Below are positions 5,525-13,547 of a stretch of DNA of 64,000 nt, piece by piece. The position numbers were made by a program, and so were the translations under genes. The stretch covers positions 1-64,000 of the forward strand of contig JAOPYO010000054.1 of NCBI GenBank assembly GCA_025964575.1, in the 5' to 3' direction. Position 1 is the first letter of the stretch, and every line of letters starts with the position of its first letter. Source of the DNA: Actinomycetes bacterium. Its GTDB lineage: Bacteria > Actinomycetota > Actinomycetes > Streptosporangiales > Streptosporangiaceae. Under the pieces are notes generated by a model. The model was not told the DNA's origin. It was given only the letters and a program-made list of their open reading frames with translations, and searched no databases.

Positions 5525-5535
5525 CCAGCGAGTTG

Positions 5536-5621
5536 TGTCCGAGGGGGGACTTGAACCCCCATGCCCCGTAAAGGGCACTAGCACCTCAAGCTAGCGCGTC
5601 TGCCAATTCCGCCACCCGGAC
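5536..5621 (-). tRNA. tRNA-Leu (anticodon GAG)
   Basis: An 86-nt class II tRNA. The acceptor arms GTCCGGG and CTCGGAC pair with one G-U. The anticodon stem is CTAGC/GCTAG around loop TTGAGGT, giving anticodon GAG. There is a long variable arm and a T-loop GGTTCAAGTCC. CCA is not encoded. The next base on the minus strand, A, fits the leucine discriminator. It reads CUC and CUU codons. Confidence 0.95.
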
Positions 5622-5740: not shown

Positions 5741-7051
5741 ATGGCCGACCAGCCAACCGCGGAAGACGAGGTCGTCGAGCTGTGCCGCGACCTCATCCGG
5801 ATCGACTCCAGCAACCCCGGCGATCACTCCGGGCCCGGTGAACGCGGGGCTGCGGAGTACGTCGCGGAGCAGCTCGCCGAGTTCGGCCTGGAGCCGCAGC
5901 TCTTCGAGTCCCACACCAAGCGGACCAGCCTGGTCGTACGGATCGAGGGCGAGGACAGCACCAGGGACGCCCTGCTGCTACACGGCCATCTTGACGTGGT
6001 GCCGGCGCAGAAGGAGGACTGGACGGTCGACCCGTTCAGCGGCGAGATCCAGGACGGCTGCGTGTGGGGTCGGGGCGCGGTCGACATGAAGGACATGGAC
6101 GCGATGATCCTCGCGGTCATCCGGCAGCGGCTGAGAGAAGGCAGGAGGCCCCCGAGGGACGTCGTGCTGGCCTTCCTGGCCGACGAGGAGGCCGGCGGCA
6201 TGTGGGGCGCCCAGTGGCTGGTCGACCAGCATCCTGAGCTGTTCGAGGGCTGCACCGAGGCGGTCGGCGAGGTCGGCGGCTTCAGCCTCACCGTCCCGGG
6301 CGACAAACGGCTCTACCTGATCGAAACGGCGGAGAAGGGCCTGGCCTGGATGCGCCTCACCGCGCAGGGGCGGGCCGGGCACGGCTCGATGGTGCACCCG
6401 GAGAACGCGGTCACCGAGCTCGCGGCGGCGGTGGCACGGCTCGGCACGCACGAGTTTCCGATCCGGCTGACCAAGACCGTGCGCGCGTTCCTCGAGACGG
6501 CCTGCGATGCGTACGGGATCGAATTCGATCCGGACGACCCGGAGAAAGCGATCAAAGAACTCGGTCCACTGGCGAGAATGATCGGCGCAACCATAAGAAA
6601 TACCCTTAATCCGACAATGCTGGACGCTGGGTATAAGACCAATGTAATTCCCCAGGAAGCGACCGCTCAGGTGGACGGCCGGTTCCTGCCCGGTCACGAG
6701 GACGAGTTCTTCGCGACCGTCGACCAGCTGCTCGGCCCCAAGGTGACGAGGGAGTTCGTCCACCATGACGCCGCAGTGGAGACCGACTACGAAGGTGCCC
6801 TGGTGGCGGCCATGGAGACGGCACTGAAGGCCGAGGACCCGGGGGCCTGGCCGGTGCCGTACTGCCTGTCCGGCGGCACCGACGCCAAGGCGTTCGCCCG
6901 GCTCGGCATGCGCTGCTACGGCTTCGCGCCGCTCCGGCTTCCCCCGGAATTGGACTTTTCCGGAATGTTCCATGGCATCGATGAGCGGGTTCCGGTCGAC
7001 GGACTGCGCTTTGGCGTGCGGGTTCTCGACCGTTTCCTTGATCTCTCCTGA
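5741..7051 (+). CDS. M20/M25/M40 family metallohydrolase (dipeptidase/deacylase-like)
   Basis: Probable cytoplasmic zinc-dependent peptidase or amidohydrolase of 436 residues. Metal and catalytic motifs visible: HGHLDVVP (His83, Asp85), GRGAVDMKD (Asp115), the Glu pair in ADEEAGG (149-150), and a final FHGIDERVP histidine near the C terminus. An internal dimerisation domain begins near GLAWMRLTAQGRAGHGS. The ATG at 5741 follows GAAGGAGAG. The stretch at about 6550-6660 is locally richer in A+T than the rest, without breaking the frame. The M20 family hydrolyses dipeptides, N-acyl amino acids or similar amides; the exact substrate cannot be assigned. The neighbours give no pathway context. Confidence 0.9.
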   Translation: MADQPTAEDEVVELCRDLIRIDSSNPGDHSGPGERGAAEYVAEQLAEFGLEPQLFESHTKRTSLVVRIEGEDSTRDALLLHGHLDVVPAQKEDWTVDPFSGEIQDGCVWGRGAVDMKDMDAMILAVIRQRLREGRRPPRDVVLAFLADEEAGGMWGAQWLVDQHPELFEGCTEAVGEVGGFSLTVPGDKRLYLIETAEKGLAWMRLTAQGRAGHGSMVHPENAVTELAAAVARLGTHEFPIRLTKTVRAFLETACDAYGIEFDPDDPEKAIKELGPLARMIGATIRNTLNPTMLDAGYKTNVIPQEATAQVDGRFLPGHEDEFFATVDQLLGPKVTREFVHHDAAVETDYEGALVAAMETALKAEDPGAWPVPYCLSGGTDAKAFARLGMRCYGFAPLRLPPELDFSGMFHGIDERVPVDGLRFGVRVLDRFLDLS

Positions 7052-7171: not shown

Positions 7172-8155
7172 GTGGCAGCTGGGCAGCCGCAGGAACGGAC
7201 GGCCTCCGTCCGCCTGCGCTCCATGCTGTCCCGGCGTCATTCCTCGACGGTTCGTCGCCTGCTCGTGGTCGGGGGGATCGCGGTGGCCGGCTGGCTGCTC
7301 GGCAGTGCCGGGCAGGCTCATGCCGACACCGCAGTCCCTGAACCCGTTGCCGCCGTGCTGCCTCATACCCCGTTCAGCCCCGTTGTCGACGGCACGGGAC
7401 TGGCGGGGAACGTGCTGCACGGGGCACCTGACCGGGCCCCGGTCCACGCGCAGTCCGTTCACAGCTCCACGAAGACGACCTCCAGTGCCGCCCCCTCATC
7501 ACCGGCGCATTCGCGAGGTCGTACGGCGGGAGGCACCGTGAGCGGGGCACTCTCCGCAACCCGGGTGTCGGCTGCGTCCGTGCCGCACGGCGCCATCAGT
7601 GATCTCGCACACACACTGGTCGATCCGGTGCTGAACCTGTTCGGCCAGGGAGGGATACACGGCGCCGCCACCACGGTGAGCGACGCTCTGTTCGTACGTC
7701 CGCCGGCGATCTTCCAAGAACTGCCCGGCAAGATCAAGCGGGCGATGGCCGGCCTCGCGTCGGCAGGATCGGCGGCGAGTCGTACATCTCCCGGCGTCTC
7801 TTGGGCCCTATGGCACCGCGAAGGTGCGGCTGCCGGCAGTGGTGACCGGAGGACGGCGGACGCCGTCGCGGCGGGCACTGCATCGGGGGCGCCCGAGAGC
7901 ACCGGGAGCGGTCGGATCGTCACTCGTGCGGCCTTCTCGCACCCGGCACCCGGGCCGGAGTTCCCCCGGCCGATGAGCCCGCAGTCCGGAGGGGTGTCGA
8001 TCCTGTCCGGCACCGCCCTCACGGGTGCGGGGCTCGGTCATGCCATCAGGCCTGGGGCTCATGCCCGGCCGACGTTCGTCCTCCCGCCGGTGCTCGGCGC
8101 GGTTCCTCCCGCGGTGCACGCGGCCACGGACGAGCCTTCTCTCTCACCCGACTAG
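7172..8155 (+). CDS. Secreted protein of unknown function
   Basis: The 327-residue product begins with a long positively charged N region (RRHSSTVRR) and a hydrophobic core (LLVVGGIAVAGWLLGSAG) ending AHA, so an exported protein with signal cleavage near residue 50 is likely. The mature part is rich in Ala, Pro, Gly and Ser, has no recognised domain and no C-terminal anchor. The GTG start is supported by GAGGAGG just upstream. It lies 141 bases before the chaplin-repeat gene in the same direction, so the two may be co-expressed surface components; that is inference. Confidence 0.75.
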   Translation: MAAGQPQERTASVRLRSMLSRRHSSTVRRLLVVGGIAVAGWLLGSAGQAHADTAVPEPVAAVLPHTPFSPVVDGTGLAGNVLHGAPDRAPVHAQSVHSSTKTTSSAAPSSPAHSRGRTAGGTVSGALSATRVSAASVPHGAISDLAHTLVDPVLNLFGQGGIHGAATTVSDALFVRPPAIFQELPGKIKRAMAGLASAGSAASRTSPGVSWALWHREGAAAGSGDRRTADAVAAGTASGAPESTGSGRIVTRAAFSHPAPGPEFPRPMSPQSGGVSILSGTALTGAGLGHAIRPGAHARPTFVLPPVLGAVPPAVHAATDEPSLSPD

Positions 8156-8296
8156 TCACACCCCACCGGTCCCCGGCTCCAGCATGACCTGGGCCGTGGC
8201 CGAGGGCGTGCCGTCCCCCCGGCGGTACGTCGGTAGTCAAACGAACACATCCAGCAACTCTCCAATCAGTCGATCTCCATGCAAGGGAGCAATCCA

Positions 8297-10309
8297 ATGC
8301 GAACGTGGACTCAAGGAACGGCGCGTGCCGTAGTCCTCACCGCGAGCTTCGTCGCTCTCGGCGCCGGCACCGTTTTCCCGACGGGTGCATTCGCCGACAC
8401 GACGAGTGGCAAGGGCAGCGTGCTCGGCGGCAACCAGATCCACGCGCCCATCTCCGCCCCGATCGACATCAGCGGCAACGCCGCCGGCGTCGCCGGGGAG
8501 TCCGCCGCCCACTCCAAGGGCGGATCCGCCGTGTACAACGGAGGTGGCCACGGTGGCGGCAAGACCAGCGGCGAGCACAGCGTCGCAGGCGGCAACCAGG
8601 TCATCGCCCCGATCAGCGCCCCCATCAACGCCTGCGGCAACGCGGTGGCCATCTTCGGCACCGCCGACGCCGGCTGCAAGGGCGGTGCCTCCACCGCTAA
8701 CAGCGGTTCAGGCGGCGGAGGCAAGACCTCCGGCAAGGGGAGTGTGCTGGGCGGTAATCAGGTCATCGCGCCGATCAGCGCCCCCATCGACGCCTGCGGC
8801 AATGCCGTCGCGGTGTTCGGCTCCGCCGAGGCCGGCTGCAAAGGCGGCGCGACCGTCCTGAACAGTGGCGGTTCCCGGGGAGACAAGACCAACGGGAAGC
8901 ACGGCGTCGGCAGTGGTAACCAGGTGTACGCCCCGGTCAGCGCACCGGTGAACCTCTGCGGCAACTCCGCAGCGATCTTCGGTGAAGCCGTCGCTGGCTG
9001 CAAGGGCGGCGCGAAGGTCCACAACGGTGGCGGCAGTGGCAAACTGCAGACGTCCGGTAAGGGCAGTGTGCTGGGCGGTAACCAGGTCATCGCGCCGATC
9101 AGCGCCCCCATCGACGCCTGTGGCAACGCCATCGGTAACGCCGCCGCGGGTTGTAAGGGCGGCACGATGGTGCACAACGGCGGAACCGTGCCCCACAAGA
9201 CCTCAGGCAAACACGGTGTCGGCAGCGGCAACCAGGTGTACGCCCCCGTGGGCGCGCCCATCAGCGCCTGCGGCAACGCCGCCGCCGTGCTCGGCGACGC
9301 CGCCGCCATGTGCCACGGCGGCTCGTCCGTGACCACGACGCCCGGCGACCCGACCACCTCGGGCAAGAACGGTGTCCTCTCGGGCAACCAGGCGTACACC
9401 CCGGTCAACGTGCCCGTGAACGTCTGCGGCAACGCCGTCGCCGTGCTCGGCGAGGCGGCCGCGGGCTGTGTCGGTGGTACCCATGCCCACAGCTCCGGTG
9501 CCCCGAACCTGAACACGTCCGGCAAGCACGGCGTCGGTGCCGGCAACCAGATCGTCGCGCCGGTGACGGCTCCGGTCGACATCTGCGGCAACGTCATCGC
9601 GGTGATCGGCGTGGCCGACCCCGGCTGTGGTGCCGGTGGGGGCGGTGGGGGCTATGGCTCTGGTCACTCCCGCGCCGCGCAGAAGGCCGATGCCCCGGGC
9701 GCCATGGGTCTGCCTGTGCTGCCCATGCTCCCCGAGCTGACCAAGGCTCAGTCGGCCGTGCCGGCCACCGCGGTTCCGTCCATGCCGATGTTGCCGGCCC
9801 AGGCTCCTGTCGGTCTGCCGGTGTCGCAGTCCGCATCCGCGAGAGGCAACGGACCGCTGTCCTCGCTGCCGGTGCAAGCGCCTCAGCTGCCCACCAATGA
9901 CCCGGCCGGACTGTCCCAGCTGTCGGTGAACCGCACCAAGGCCGCCGCTCTGGCGCCCGAGGCGCTGCTCGCCCCCGGGGCCGAGTTCGTCGGTGCACTG
10001 CCCATGGGTCGGCAGCGCCAGGCGGCCGCTCCCGCCCCGGGCGCTCCGGCTCTGCCGGACCTGCCCACGCTGCCCGTCGCCGGAGACTCGCTGCCGGTCG
10101 GCGGCCACCTCGCTGCCCCGCAGATCGGCGGGGTCACCGACAAGGCCAGCGGCCTGCAGCAGCAGGTCGGCGGAGTGCGCCTGGCGGCTGATTCCCAGCC
10201 GCGGGCTCTGGGGATGAGCGGAACTTCCCTGTACGTCCTGGTCGTCGGTTCGTTGCTGGCAGGCGTCGCCGCGGCGGGCGGCGCCGTCCGTCGCATCTGC
10301 CGGCGGTAG
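8297..10309 (+). CDS. Multi-repeat chaplin-like cell-surface protein
   Basis: An exported protein of 670 residues: a signal peptide ending AFA, eight chaplin-like (DUF320-type) repeats, a Pro/Ala-rich stretch with many LPxLP-like segments, and a C-terminal membrane segment (LYVLVVGSLLAGVAAAGGAV) with a basic tail RRICRR. Repeats carry the GNQVxAPxxAPxxxCGN core and a second Cys in AGCKGG. Chaplins are hydrophobic amyloid-forming proteins that coat aerial hyphae and spores. Classical long chaplins have two repeats and an LAxTG sortase signal; here there are eight and I see no clear sortase motif, so simple membrane anchoring is more likely. The ATG at 8297 is chosen over 8279 because AAGGGAG lies 7 bases upstream. 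Confidence 0.85.
   Translation: MRTWTQGTARAVVLTASFVALGAGTVFPTGAFADTTSGKGSVLGGNQIHAPISAPIDISGNAAGVAGESAAHSKGGSAVYNGGGHGGGKTSGEHSVAGGNQVIAPISAPINACGNAVAIFGTADAGCKGGASTANSGSGGGGKTSGKGSVLGGNQVIAPISAPIDACGNAVAVFGSAEAGCKGGATVLNSGGSRGDKTNGKHGVGSGNQVYAPVSAPVNLCGNSAAIFGEAVAGCKGGAKVHNGGGSGKLQTSGKGSVLGGNQVIAPISAPIDACGNAIGNAAAGCKGGTMVHNGGTVPHKTSGKHGVGSGNQVYAPVGAPISACGNAAAVLGDAAAMCHGGSSVTTTPGDPTTSGKNGVLSGNQAYTPVNVPVNVCGNAVAVLGEAAAGCVGGTHAHSSGAPNLNTSGKHGVGAGNQIVAPVTAPVDICGNVIAVIGVADPGCGAGGGGGGYGSGHSRAAQKADAPGAMGLPVLPMLPELTKAQSAVPATAVPSMPMLPAQAPVGLPVSQSASARGNGPLSSLPVQAPQLPTNDPAGLSQLSVNRTKAAALAPEALLAPGAEFVGALPMGRQRQAAAPAPGAPALPDLPTLPVAGDSLPVGGHLAAPQIGGVTDKASGLQQQVGGVRLAADSQPRALGMSGTSLYVLVVGSLLAGVAAAGGAVRRICRR
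8402..9640 (+). repeat. Eight in-frame chaplin-type repeats
   Basis: Each unit starts T(S/N)G(K/E) and ends near GCKGG, about 41 residues long, separated by Gly/Ser linkers. Unit 1 lacks both conserved cysteines (SGN and HSKGG). Unit 5 is three residues shorter. Units 3 and 5 are almost identical at DNA level (about 8731-8807 and 9052-9125), implying recent duplication. Confidence 0.85.
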
Positions 10310-10488: not shown

Positions 10489-10674
10489 CTAGATCGTACG
10501 GACTTGCCGAATGATCTTTCGACGGAGTTGGATGTAGCGGCTACCGTCGGGGTAGAGCCGTAGCCGATCGAGTTCCCATCTGCCGTACTCGGCATGCTCG
10601 GTCATGATCTGCCGGGCGGCCTCCCGAGTGGTGCCGCGCGGCAGTCGCAGTACGAGGTAGGTGTACTCCGCCAT
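10489..10674 (-). CDS. DUF5703-family small protein
   Basis: A 61-residue protein with the sequence pattern of a conserved actinobacterial family: YTYLVLRLPRGTTREAARQI, then TEHAEYGRWELDRLRLYPDG and RYIQLRRKIIR. Function is unknown. I chose the ATG at 10674 because the family usually begins close to the EY.Y motif; an in-frame ATG at 10683 is possible. No ribosome site is seen. A CATAAT element lies just upstream, so the transcript could be leaderless. It is divergent from topA. Confidence 0.8.
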   Translation of the reverse strand: MAEYTYLVLRLPRGTTREAARQIMTEHAEYGRWELDRLRLYPDGSRYIQLRRKIIRQVRTI

Positions 10675-10811: not shown

Positions 10812-13547
10812 GTGCCAGCCAACAACGGCACTGCCAAGTCCGGCGGCACCCGTCTGGTGATCGTCGAGTCGCCCGCGAAGGCAAAGACCATCGCGGGTTA
10901 CCTTGGCGGCAACTATGTCGTGGAGTCCAGTATTGGCCACATTCGTGACCTTCCTGGGAAGGCCTCGGAGGTCCCGGCGAAGTTCAAGGGCGAGGAGTGG
11001 GCCAAGCTCGGCGTCAACGTCGACCGCGATTTCGAGCCGCTGTACATCGTCAACACCGATAAGAAGCAGCAGGTCGCCAAGCTCAAGAAGCTGCTGGAAG
11101 ACGCCGACGAACTCTTCCTCGCCACGGACGAGGACCGGGAGGGCGAGGCGATCGCCTGGCATCTGCGCGAGGTCCTCAAGCCCAAGGTGCCGGTGCACCG
11201 GATGGTCTTCAACGAGATCACCCGGGACGCGATCCGGGCCGCCGCGGAGAATCCCCGCGAGCTCAACCTGCGTCTCGTCGACGCCCAGGAGACCCGTCGC
11301 ATCCTCGATCGCCTCTACGGCTACGAGGTCAGCCCGGTCCTGTGGAAGAAGATGATGATGCCGGGCCTGTCGGCCGGCCGGGTGCAGTCGGTCGCCACCC
11401 GCCTGGTCGTCGAGCGGGAGCGCGAGCGCATCGCGTTCGTCCCCTCGCATTACTGGGACATCACGGCCCTGTTCGCAGCGTCTTCGAGCAGTGGCGAGCC
11501 GGAAGAGCCCAACGATTTCAAAGCCAACCTGGTCATGGTGGACGGCAAGCGTGTCGCCCAGGGCCGGGACTTCTCCGCGCAGGGCACGCTCAAGTCAGCC
11601 GACTTGGTGCACCTGGACGAGGCCGCCGCCCGCGGCCTCGCCGAGCGGCTCGTGGGCAGGCCGTACGCGGTCAAGTCCGTTGAGCGCAAGCCGTACACCC
11701 GCAAGCCGTACGCCCCGTTCCGGACCACCACGCTGCAGCAGGAAGCCAGCCGCAAGTTGGGCTTCTCGCCGAAGTACGCGATGCAGGTCGCCCAGAAGCT
11801 GTACGAGAACGGCTTCATCACCTATATGCGTACCGACAGCATCACGCTGTCGGAGACCGCGCTCGCGGCCGCCCGAGCCCAGGCCACCACGCTGTACGGC
11901 GCGCAGTACGTCCCGGACAAGCCGCGCGTCTACGCGGGCAAGGTCAAGAACGCCCAGGAGGCGCACGAGGCGATCCGGCCCGCCGGTGACTCCTTCCGCA
12001 CCCCGGGTGAGACCGGTCTGTCCGGCGATCAGTTCCGGCTGTACGAGCTGATCTGGAAGCGGACCGTCGCCTCCCAGATGAAGGACGCCATCGGTCAGTC
12101 GGTGTCCATCCGGATCGCCGGCACCTCGACCGCGGGTGAGGCCGCCGAGTTCGGTGCCACCGGTAAGACGATCACCTTCTACGGCTTTCTGAAGGCGTAC
12201 GTCGAGGGTGCTGACGACCCCGAGGCCGACCGCGACGACCGTGAGCGGCGGCTGCCCAACCTCGAAGAGGACGACCCGCTGAGCGCACTCAGTGTGGAGC
12301 CCGACGGGCACAGCACCCGGCCCCCGGCCCGTTACACCGAGGCCAGCCTGATCAAGGAACTGGAAGATCGGGAGATCGGCCGTCCGTCCACGTACGCGTC
12401 GATCATCGGCACGATCCTGGACCGTGGTTACGTCTTCAAGAAGGGCACCGCGCTGGTGCCCGCGTTCCTGGCGTTCGCAGTGATCCAACTGCTCGAGAAG
12501 CACTTCGGCAATCTGGTCGACTATGACTTCACCGCACGTATGGAGGACTGCCTCGACTCGATCGCCCGTGGTGAGGCCGAGCGGGTGCCGTGGCTTCGGC
12601 ACTTCTACTTCGGTGACGCCAGTCAGGGCGATGAAGGCTTGAAGGAGCTGGTCAGCGACCTCGGCGAGATCGACGCCAAGGAGATCAGCTCGTTCCCGCT
12701 CAAGGGCAGCAGCGACGTCATGATCCGGGTCGGCCGGTACGGACCGTATCTCGACCGTGACGGCGAGCGAGTCAACATCCCCGAAGACCTCGCCCCCGAC
12801 GAGCTGGACGCGGTCAAGGCGGAGGAGCTGTTCGCGCAGCCGAGCGGGGACCGGGAGCTGGGCATCGACCCGGAGTCCGGCCACAAGATCGTGGCTAAGT
12901 CCGGCCGATTCGGCCCGTACGTCACCGAGATCCTGCCCGAGGAGCCGGCTTTGCAGCCGGCGTCGGCCAGCGTCGACGGGGACAAGCCTGTTCCTGAAAA
13001 GCGTGCCAGGACCAAGAAGGCCGCGGCGGTCAAGCCACGGACCGGTTCGCTGTTCAAGTCGATGTCGCTGGACACCATCACCCTGGACGACGCCCTCAAG
13101 CTGCTCTCGCTGCCGCGCACGCTCGGTGAGATCGACGGTGACCCGGTGACCGCCCAGAACGGCAGGTTCGGCCCCTACGTCAAGAAGGGCACCGACAGCC
13201 GTTCCCTGGGCGCCGAGGAGGATCTGTTCACGGTCACCCTCGAGCAGGCCAAGGAGCTGCTCGCCCAGCCCAAGCAGCGTGGGCGCGGCCGAGCGGCGGC
13301 CGCTCCGCCGCTTCGGGAACTGGGCAACGACCCTGCCAGCGGCAAGCCGGTCGTGGTCAAGGAGGGGCGCTTCGGGCCGTACGTCACCGACGGCGAGACC
13401 AACGCCAGCCTGCGTAAGGGCGACGAGGTTGAGTCGATCACGATTCAGCGGGCGGCAGAGCTGCTCGTCGAACGCCGTGAAAAGGTCGCGGCCGGCGGAG
13501 GCAAGAAGACGCCCGCAAGACGTGGAACCGCCAAGTCACGCTCCTAA
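10812..13547 (+). CDS. topA: DNA topoisomerase I (type IA)
   Basis: Relaxes negatively supercoiled DNA by single-strand passage. The TOPRIM domain opens with LVIVESPAKAKTIAGYLG, with the acidic cluster FLATDEDREGEAIAWH. The catalytic tyrosine is in FITYMRTDS (about residue 338). The C-terminal third carries several Toprim_C repeats recognised by GRFGPYV, then a basic Lys/Arg-rich tail, as in other actinomycete enzymes. At 911 residues the length is normal. The GTG at 10812 has TTGGAG upstream. Downstream lie the MFS-thymidylate kinase fusion and holB, an arrangement common in actinomycetes. Confidence 0.98.
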   Translation: MPANNGTAKSGGTRLVIVESPAKAKTIAGYLGGNYVVESSIGHIRDLPGKASEVPAKFKGEEWAKLGVNVDRDFEPLYIVNTDKKQQVAKLKKLLEDADELFLATDEDREGEAIAWHLREVLKPKVPVHRMVFNEITRDAIRAAAENPRELNLRLVDAQETRRILDRLYGYEVSPVLWKKMMMPGLSAGRVQSVATRLVVERERERIAFVPSHYWDITALFAASSSSGEPEEPNDFKANLVMVDGKRVAQGRDFSAQGTLKSADLVHLDEAAARGLAERLVGRPYAVKSVERKPYTRKPYAPFRTTTLQQEASRKLGFSPKYAMQVAQKLYENGFITYMRTDSITLSETALAAARAQATTLYGAQYVPDKPRVYAGKVKNAQEAHEAIRPAGDSFRTPGETGLSGDQFRLYELIWKRTVASQMKDAIGQSVSIRIAGTSTAGEAAEFGATGKTITFYGFLKAYVEGADDPEADRDDRERRLPNLEEDDPLSALSVEPDGHSTRPPARYTEASLIKELEDREIGRPSTYASIIGTILDRGYVFKKGTALVPAFLAFAVIQLLEKHFGNLVDYDFTARMEDCLDSIARGEAERVPWLRHFYFGDASQGDEGLKELVSDLGEIDAKEISSFPLKGSSDVMIRVGRYGPYLDRDGERVNIPEDLAPDELDAVKAEELFAQPSGDRELGIDPESGHKIVAKSGRFGPYVTEILPEEPALQPASASVDGDKPVPEKRARTKKAAAVKPRTGSLFKSMSLDTITLDDALKLLSLPRTLGEIDGDPVTAQNGRFGPYVKKGTDSRSLGAEEDLFTVTLEQAKELLAQPKQRGRGRAAAAPPLRELGNDPASGKPVVVKEGRFGPYVTDGETNASLRKGDEVESITIQRAAELLVERREKVAAGGGKKTPARRGTAKSRS

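Follow-up and report, generated by a model that had tools for sequence, protein, structure and literature searches.

The window, by which we mean the whole stretch of 64,000 nucleotides that was analysed, carries a chaplin-like gene in a conserved neighbourhood (Table 1). The order M20 peptidase, partner, chaplin, DUF5703 on the opposite strand and topA is kept across genera; the M20, DUF5703 and topA names are those that we take to fit from the sequences. Genome G057, which we take to be Streptomyces-like from its sequence and which has 11 chaplin matches, carries M20, a short chaplin (chpH), a two-repeat chaplin with LAHTG (chpC) and DUF5703 in this order, and its M20 protein shares 71% identity with that of the window. 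As the M20 and DUF5703 flanks are common to both, the window gene is, judged by gene order, a positional homologue of Streptomyces chpH/chpC.

The frame opens with an ATG (MRTW...), and an AGGAG stands at the ribosome-binding position in nearly all relatives. A Pfam profile search matched the protein to ChpA-C (PF03777.18) over eight stretches with an E-value of 7.4e-51 and 170 bits, which against the curated cut-off of 21 bits places it in the chaplin domain family. An earlier note, made from the sequence alone, had described a surface-directed, chaplin-like protein with eight repeats and a Pro-rich spacer. The Pfam result, the signal peptide, the C-terminal membrane segment and the LPxLPxxP-bearing spacer bear this out. 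The MRTW start and an AxA-D cleavage site are also kept in relatives, and the spacer probably serves as a wall-spanning stalk. A PDB sequence search with the protein gave no match. AlphaFold models were of low confidence (pLDDT 50 for the repeat region and 36 for repeats 2-4), with short strands predicted, and Foldseek found no match to the predicted model in the PDB below an E-value of 0.3; we therefore claim no fold for the repeats.

Table 1. Features of the chaplin locus, in window coordinates
Feature	Position	Strand	Basis
tRNA-Leu(gag)	5535-5621	-	upstream of the M20 gene; same place in relatives
M20 family peptidase, conserved left neighbour	5741..7051	+	relatives carry it here at 68-92% identity
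Partner: secreted protein ending ...TDEPSLSPD-stop	7208..8155 (open frame from 7172)	+	same C-terminus upstream of the chaplin in other genera
Ribosome-binding site AAGGGAG	8283..8289	+	sequence
Eight-repeat chaplin-like surface protein, 670 aa (MRTWTQ...RRICRR)	8297..10309	+	PF03777 match; kept across the family
Sec-type signal peptide, aa 1-34 (...TGAFA|DTT)	8297..8398	+	sequence inspection
Repeat 1, cysteine-free (ISGN; CGN->SGN)	8402..8563	+	sequence; also in other genera
Repeat 2, two cysteines	8564..8725	+	sequence, repeat comparison
Repeat 3, two cysteines	8726..8887	+	sequence, repeat comparison
Repeat 4, two cysteines	8888..9049	+	sequence, repeat comparison
Repeat 5, 4 aa short, shortened between its two cysteines (CGNAIGNAAAGC)	9050..9199	+	sequence, repeat comparison
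Repeat 6, two cysteines	9200..9355	+	sequence, repeat comparison
Repeat 7, two cysteines, best Pfam match	9356..9514	+	Pfam, sequence
Repeat 8, two cysteines	9515..9646	+	sequence, repeat comparison
Pro/Ala/Leu-rich spacer (LPxLPxxP motifs)	9647..10168	+	sequence; relatives have a spacer too
Conserved C-terminal signal: P....GM[NS]..SL, membrane segment (10226-10288), RRICRR	10169..10306	+	alignments A1, A6
DUF5703-like 61-aa protein, conserved right neighbour	10489..10674	-	53-98% identity in relatives
topA (DNA topoisomerase I), conserved right neighbour	10812..13547	+	

Chaplin repeats and their spread

The repeats start at residues 36, 90, 144, 198, 252, 302, 354 and 407, with a period of 50-54 residues, and seven of the eight carry a cysteine pair, the first having none. 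Two GN turns (GNQ and CGN) are conserved, most repeats have just a G in place of the third, and the definition of three GN turns per domain (PMC13251363) does not fit them. None of the repeats covers the ChpA-C profile in full, and the best stretch spans positions 13-45 of its 57. This partial match, together with the absent third GN turn, suggests that the amyloid properties of these repeats may differ from those of classical chaplins.

Across the order, 299 genomes were sampled and PF03777 occurs in 275 of them, representing 53 of 62 genera. Besides the window gene, the source genome contains a single chaplin match, which is a short form. Taking loci from about 75 genomes and scoring the long chaplins by script, we obtained 78 distinct long chaplins, of which 74 were complete and 65 had a membrane tail; the sample was drawn partly via hits to the partner, so the proportions are not those of an unbiased census. 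Among these 65, the 55 lacking a canonical sortase motif carry 4-9 repeats, seven being present in 22 of them and eight in 17. The other ten, with L[PA]xTG, have 2-5, and in one of them (L137) the motif lies too far upstream to convince. Pfam counts agree where checked, with eight stretches in many relatives, 5-7 in others and two for the Streptomyces-type protein. Among named relatives the closest is a metagenome-assembled genome of Streptosporangiaceae from the same genus (70% identity over the best tblastn segment). By this survey the window protein is the standard long chaplin of its whole family and not an oddity of one genome.

The exceptional status that the earlier note had given the protein is thus contradicted, and the search that it had proposed, for proteins with more than four repeats, finds such forms to be common, with a mode of 7-8 among the 55. 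It had also asked whether many-repeat forms are standard and well described in related genera. Standard they are, while in the open-access literature searched we found no description of many-repeat chaplins or of the D[DE]PSFSPD partner. In reviews, a long chaplin is characterised by having two domains and a sortase signal (PMC5618241, PMC13251363). Chaplin-like genes of Streptosporangium, Thermobifida and Nocardiopsis are mentioned in PMC4255298, in passages that give no repeat numbers.

The individual repeats also keep their identities. The first is cysteine-free in 54 of the 55 motif-less proteins, and most genera whose proteins have 7-8 repeats show the fifth one shortened at the corresponding place. 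Such recurrence across genera argues against recent or independent expansion and for an old eight-repeat plan; on the same grounds we rejected the idea that the eight repeats are an assembly artefact.

A further variant occurs in Nocardiopsis-like genera, where some long chaplins have no membrane tail at all (L053, L055, L122, L132, L133, L135 and L138), and their repeats mostly lack cysteines, except at L055.

The C-terminal tail and a proposed tether

The protein ends in SLYVLVVGSLLAGVAAAGGAV-RRICRR, a membrane segment (near residues 644-664) followed by a basic tail. No [LP][PA]xTG lies near the end, the canonical L[PA]xTG is absent and the NCBIfam LPXTG and LAVTG models do not match the protein, in agreement with the missing sortase signal of the earlier note. 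Its description of a plain membrane tail is right as to the membrane segment and basic end and falls short as to the rest, as the tail carries the family motif P....GM[NS]..SL and is homologous to a sortase-signal tail. The conserved block in alignments A1 and A6 reads GLMSAEQPAGxTGMNxGSLxALxLGAMFAASAxLFAxTRRxRxGRR as a consensus, and in A6 the residues P, G, M, L, G, A and RR do not vary. Most relatives keep P..xTGMN..SL, of which only GMS is left in the window's genus. In the order-mate G037 (locus L058), two adjacent chaplins end in LPVTG tails, ELPVTGLNLGSLVAL...ATRRR and ELPVTGTNAGSLVAL...ATSRRVRFGRR, and the tail profile matches them with E-values of 1e-8 and 3e-9. Because the tails align, the family tail resembles a sorting signal that has decayed or been altered, an ancestral LPxTG followed by decay being the simplest reading.

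In the source genome the tail profile matches the chaplin alone, at 1e-13 with the next value at 0.03, and nearly all family genomes searched likewise have one match, on the chaplin. With one tail-bearing protein per genome, the idea of a general, multi-substrate sorting signal is argued against. The genome encodes three sortase-type proteins, one of which is presumably of class E, judging from a typical class E neighbourhood. Matches of the LPXTG and LAVTG models across this genome are weak and, a possible EPSTG tail apart, point to no clear sorted protein. At L061 (G000:C379) a sortase-type frame of 386 residues has a PstS-like protein on one side and a PstB-like ATPase on the other, and at L072 (G000:C159), in the same genome, a 390-residue frame terminates in GEPSTGKTLGFVAVVGLAVVGALVVVRRRFRG, which may be a non-canonical sorting signal.

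We propose, with a probability of about 0.5, that the window protein is the long chaplin of Streptosporangiaceae (sensu GTDB) at the ancestral chpC/chpH position, acting as a multivalent tether that is held in the membrane by a decayed LPxTG tail. Chaplins form amphipathic amyloid layers, which long chaplins are proposed to tether through co-assembly of their domains (PMC5618241). Following export by Sec, the Pro-rich stalk would cross the wall and hold out up to eight beta-rich chaplin modules, seven of them with a cysteine pair, while the C-terminal membrane segment, as a descendant of the LPxTG sorting signal, would keep the protein on the cell. The repeats would then co-assemble with the single short chaplin of the genome, so that one multivalent molecule would do the tethering that ChpA-C achieve by two repeats and a covalent wall bond. 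At the level of sequence, the anatomy and the number of repeats are established, as are the synteny, the conservation across the family, the loss of the motif and the homology of the tail to LPVTG tails; we infer an amyloid state and a role in surface hydrophobicity on aerial surfaces. A multivalent amyloid-type anchor, as suggested by the earlier note, is reasonable.

Two points count against membrane-only anchoring: conservation of the tail ahead of the membrane segment exceeds what simple anchoring would require, and the genome has the class E-type sortase. Both bear on a somewhat unlikely alternative, in which the tail still functions in sorting and a divergent sortase or other C-terminal transpeptidase recognises P..xTGMN (GMS in the window's genus) for covalent attachment. 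This would account for the invariant P, G and M upstream of the membrane segment, for the presence of three sortase-type proteins and for the 33 of 55 motif-less tails that keep TGM[NTS] exactly at the LPVTG position of relatives, followed by a membrane segment and an Arg/Lys cluster. It fits less well with the loss of Thr in the window's genus and others (13 tails with GM only and nine with neither), with one tail-bearing protein per genome and with the lack of a sortase gene at the chaplin locus. Class E sortases, moreover, prefer LAxTG.

It is quite improbable that the protein acts mainly as an adhesin or biofilm-matrix protein of substrate hyphae rather than as an aerial-surface hydrophobin. 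The long stalk, the many repeats with Gly/Asn-rich linkers and the presence of just one short chaplin in the genome would suit such a role, and chaplins act in attachment too, as reviewed in PMC4255298. The positional homology with chpC/chpH, however, speaks against it, as does the wide occurrence of the protein in a family of mostly mycelial organisms.

The proposed tether shares with Streptomyces ChpA-C the signal peptide, PF03777 repeats with a cysteine pair and GN turns, spacer, and C-terminal membrane segment with a basic tail, and with ChpC the M20/DUF5703 locus. Unlike ChpA-C, which have two repeats, proteins of this type have 4-9 (eight in the window), with a cysteine-free first repeat, no third GN turn, no L[PA]xTG and an extra partner gene. 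The short chaplins ChpD-H belong to the same domain family, and one such short chaplin is found in the source genome, but they have one repeat, no stalk and no anchor. Similar in repeat type and tail are the LPVTG chaplins of Nocardiopsis-like genera and the order-mate (L055, L057, L058, L135 and L138-L141), several of which also share the locus and several of which directly follow the D[DE]PSFSPD partner; these differ in having 2-5 repeats, cysteines in the first repeat and a canonical sortase motif. CwpA and CwpB of Actinoplanes missouriensis are SrtE-dependent hydrophobic surface proteins with a proposed long-chaplin-like role (PMC13251363), yet they have no chaplin domain and possess a working sortase signal.

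The upstream partner and the leader

The partner has an invariant hydrophobic core near its N-terminus (GG....GWL). In relatives it ends in TAAD[DE]PSFSPD immediately before the chaplin, the family C-terminus being D[DE]PS[FYL]SPD-stop. Within the order its profile matched 224 of the 299 sampled genomes, which represent 45 of 62 genera; in the rest of the class, about 185 genomes gave no match. Comparison of the partner with Pfam and NCBIfam gave no credible match. Synonymous codons vary under the C-terminal motif, which points to selection on the protein; we accordingly rejected conservation at the DNA level only.

At 47 loci the last codons of the partner nevertheless have a third-position GC of about 0.19-0.49 at four codons of CCN TCN TTY TCN CCN, and an ACN codon upstream has 0.17, compared with 0.82 in the rest of the gene. 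An extra constraint on these 3' codons at the nucleotide level is possible.

One further reading, compatible with the membrane-held tether, treats the two genes as one machine, in which the partner would be a dedicated chaperone, anchor or processing factor. The partner adjoins the chaplin on the same strand in 50 of the 55 motif-less cases, in a sample partly drawn via partner hits, its exact C-terminus is kept at the protein level despite synonymous change, and it is restricted to the family, as is the many-repeat chaplin. We regard this reading as rather unlikely, as the two genes may lie side by side simply because the locus was inherited from a common ancestor, the low-complexity body of the partner resembles no known chaperone, and co-transcription is putative, with a 141-bp gap between the genes in the window. 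More speculative, and in our view unlikely, is a family-specific system in which the TGMN/GMS-tailed chaplin and the partner together anchor the chaplin layer by a non-sortase or new-sortase route, replacing the covalent long chaplins of Streptomyces.

The current picture of chaplins is built on Streptomyces, in which two repeats and anchoring by sortase define the long forms. An entire family of actinomycetes carries instead a form with 4-9 repeats at the chpC/chpH locus, its sorting motif degenerate or gone and its repeat number and identities conserved. It becomes possible to test whether a chaplin coat needs covalent wall anchoring or can rely on valency in its place, and which role the partner has. 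The window chaplin is a lineage-wide variant, ordinary for its family.

The arrangement varies in Nocardiopsis-like genera, where a short LPVTG chaplin can stand between the partner and a cysteine-poor, tail-less many-repeat chaplin. The leader between partner and chaplin also has features of its own. A stem was not seen in the shorter leader of the window (8156-8296), and Rfam gave no known RNA match for the leader. In about 34 relatives, with leaders of 185-280 nt (e.g. L110), a conserved stem, CUCGUGAC...GUCGCGAG, shows some compensatory changes and is followed by GUCAGGUAACCCCC and the AGGAG site; this stem could be an RNA element or an operator.
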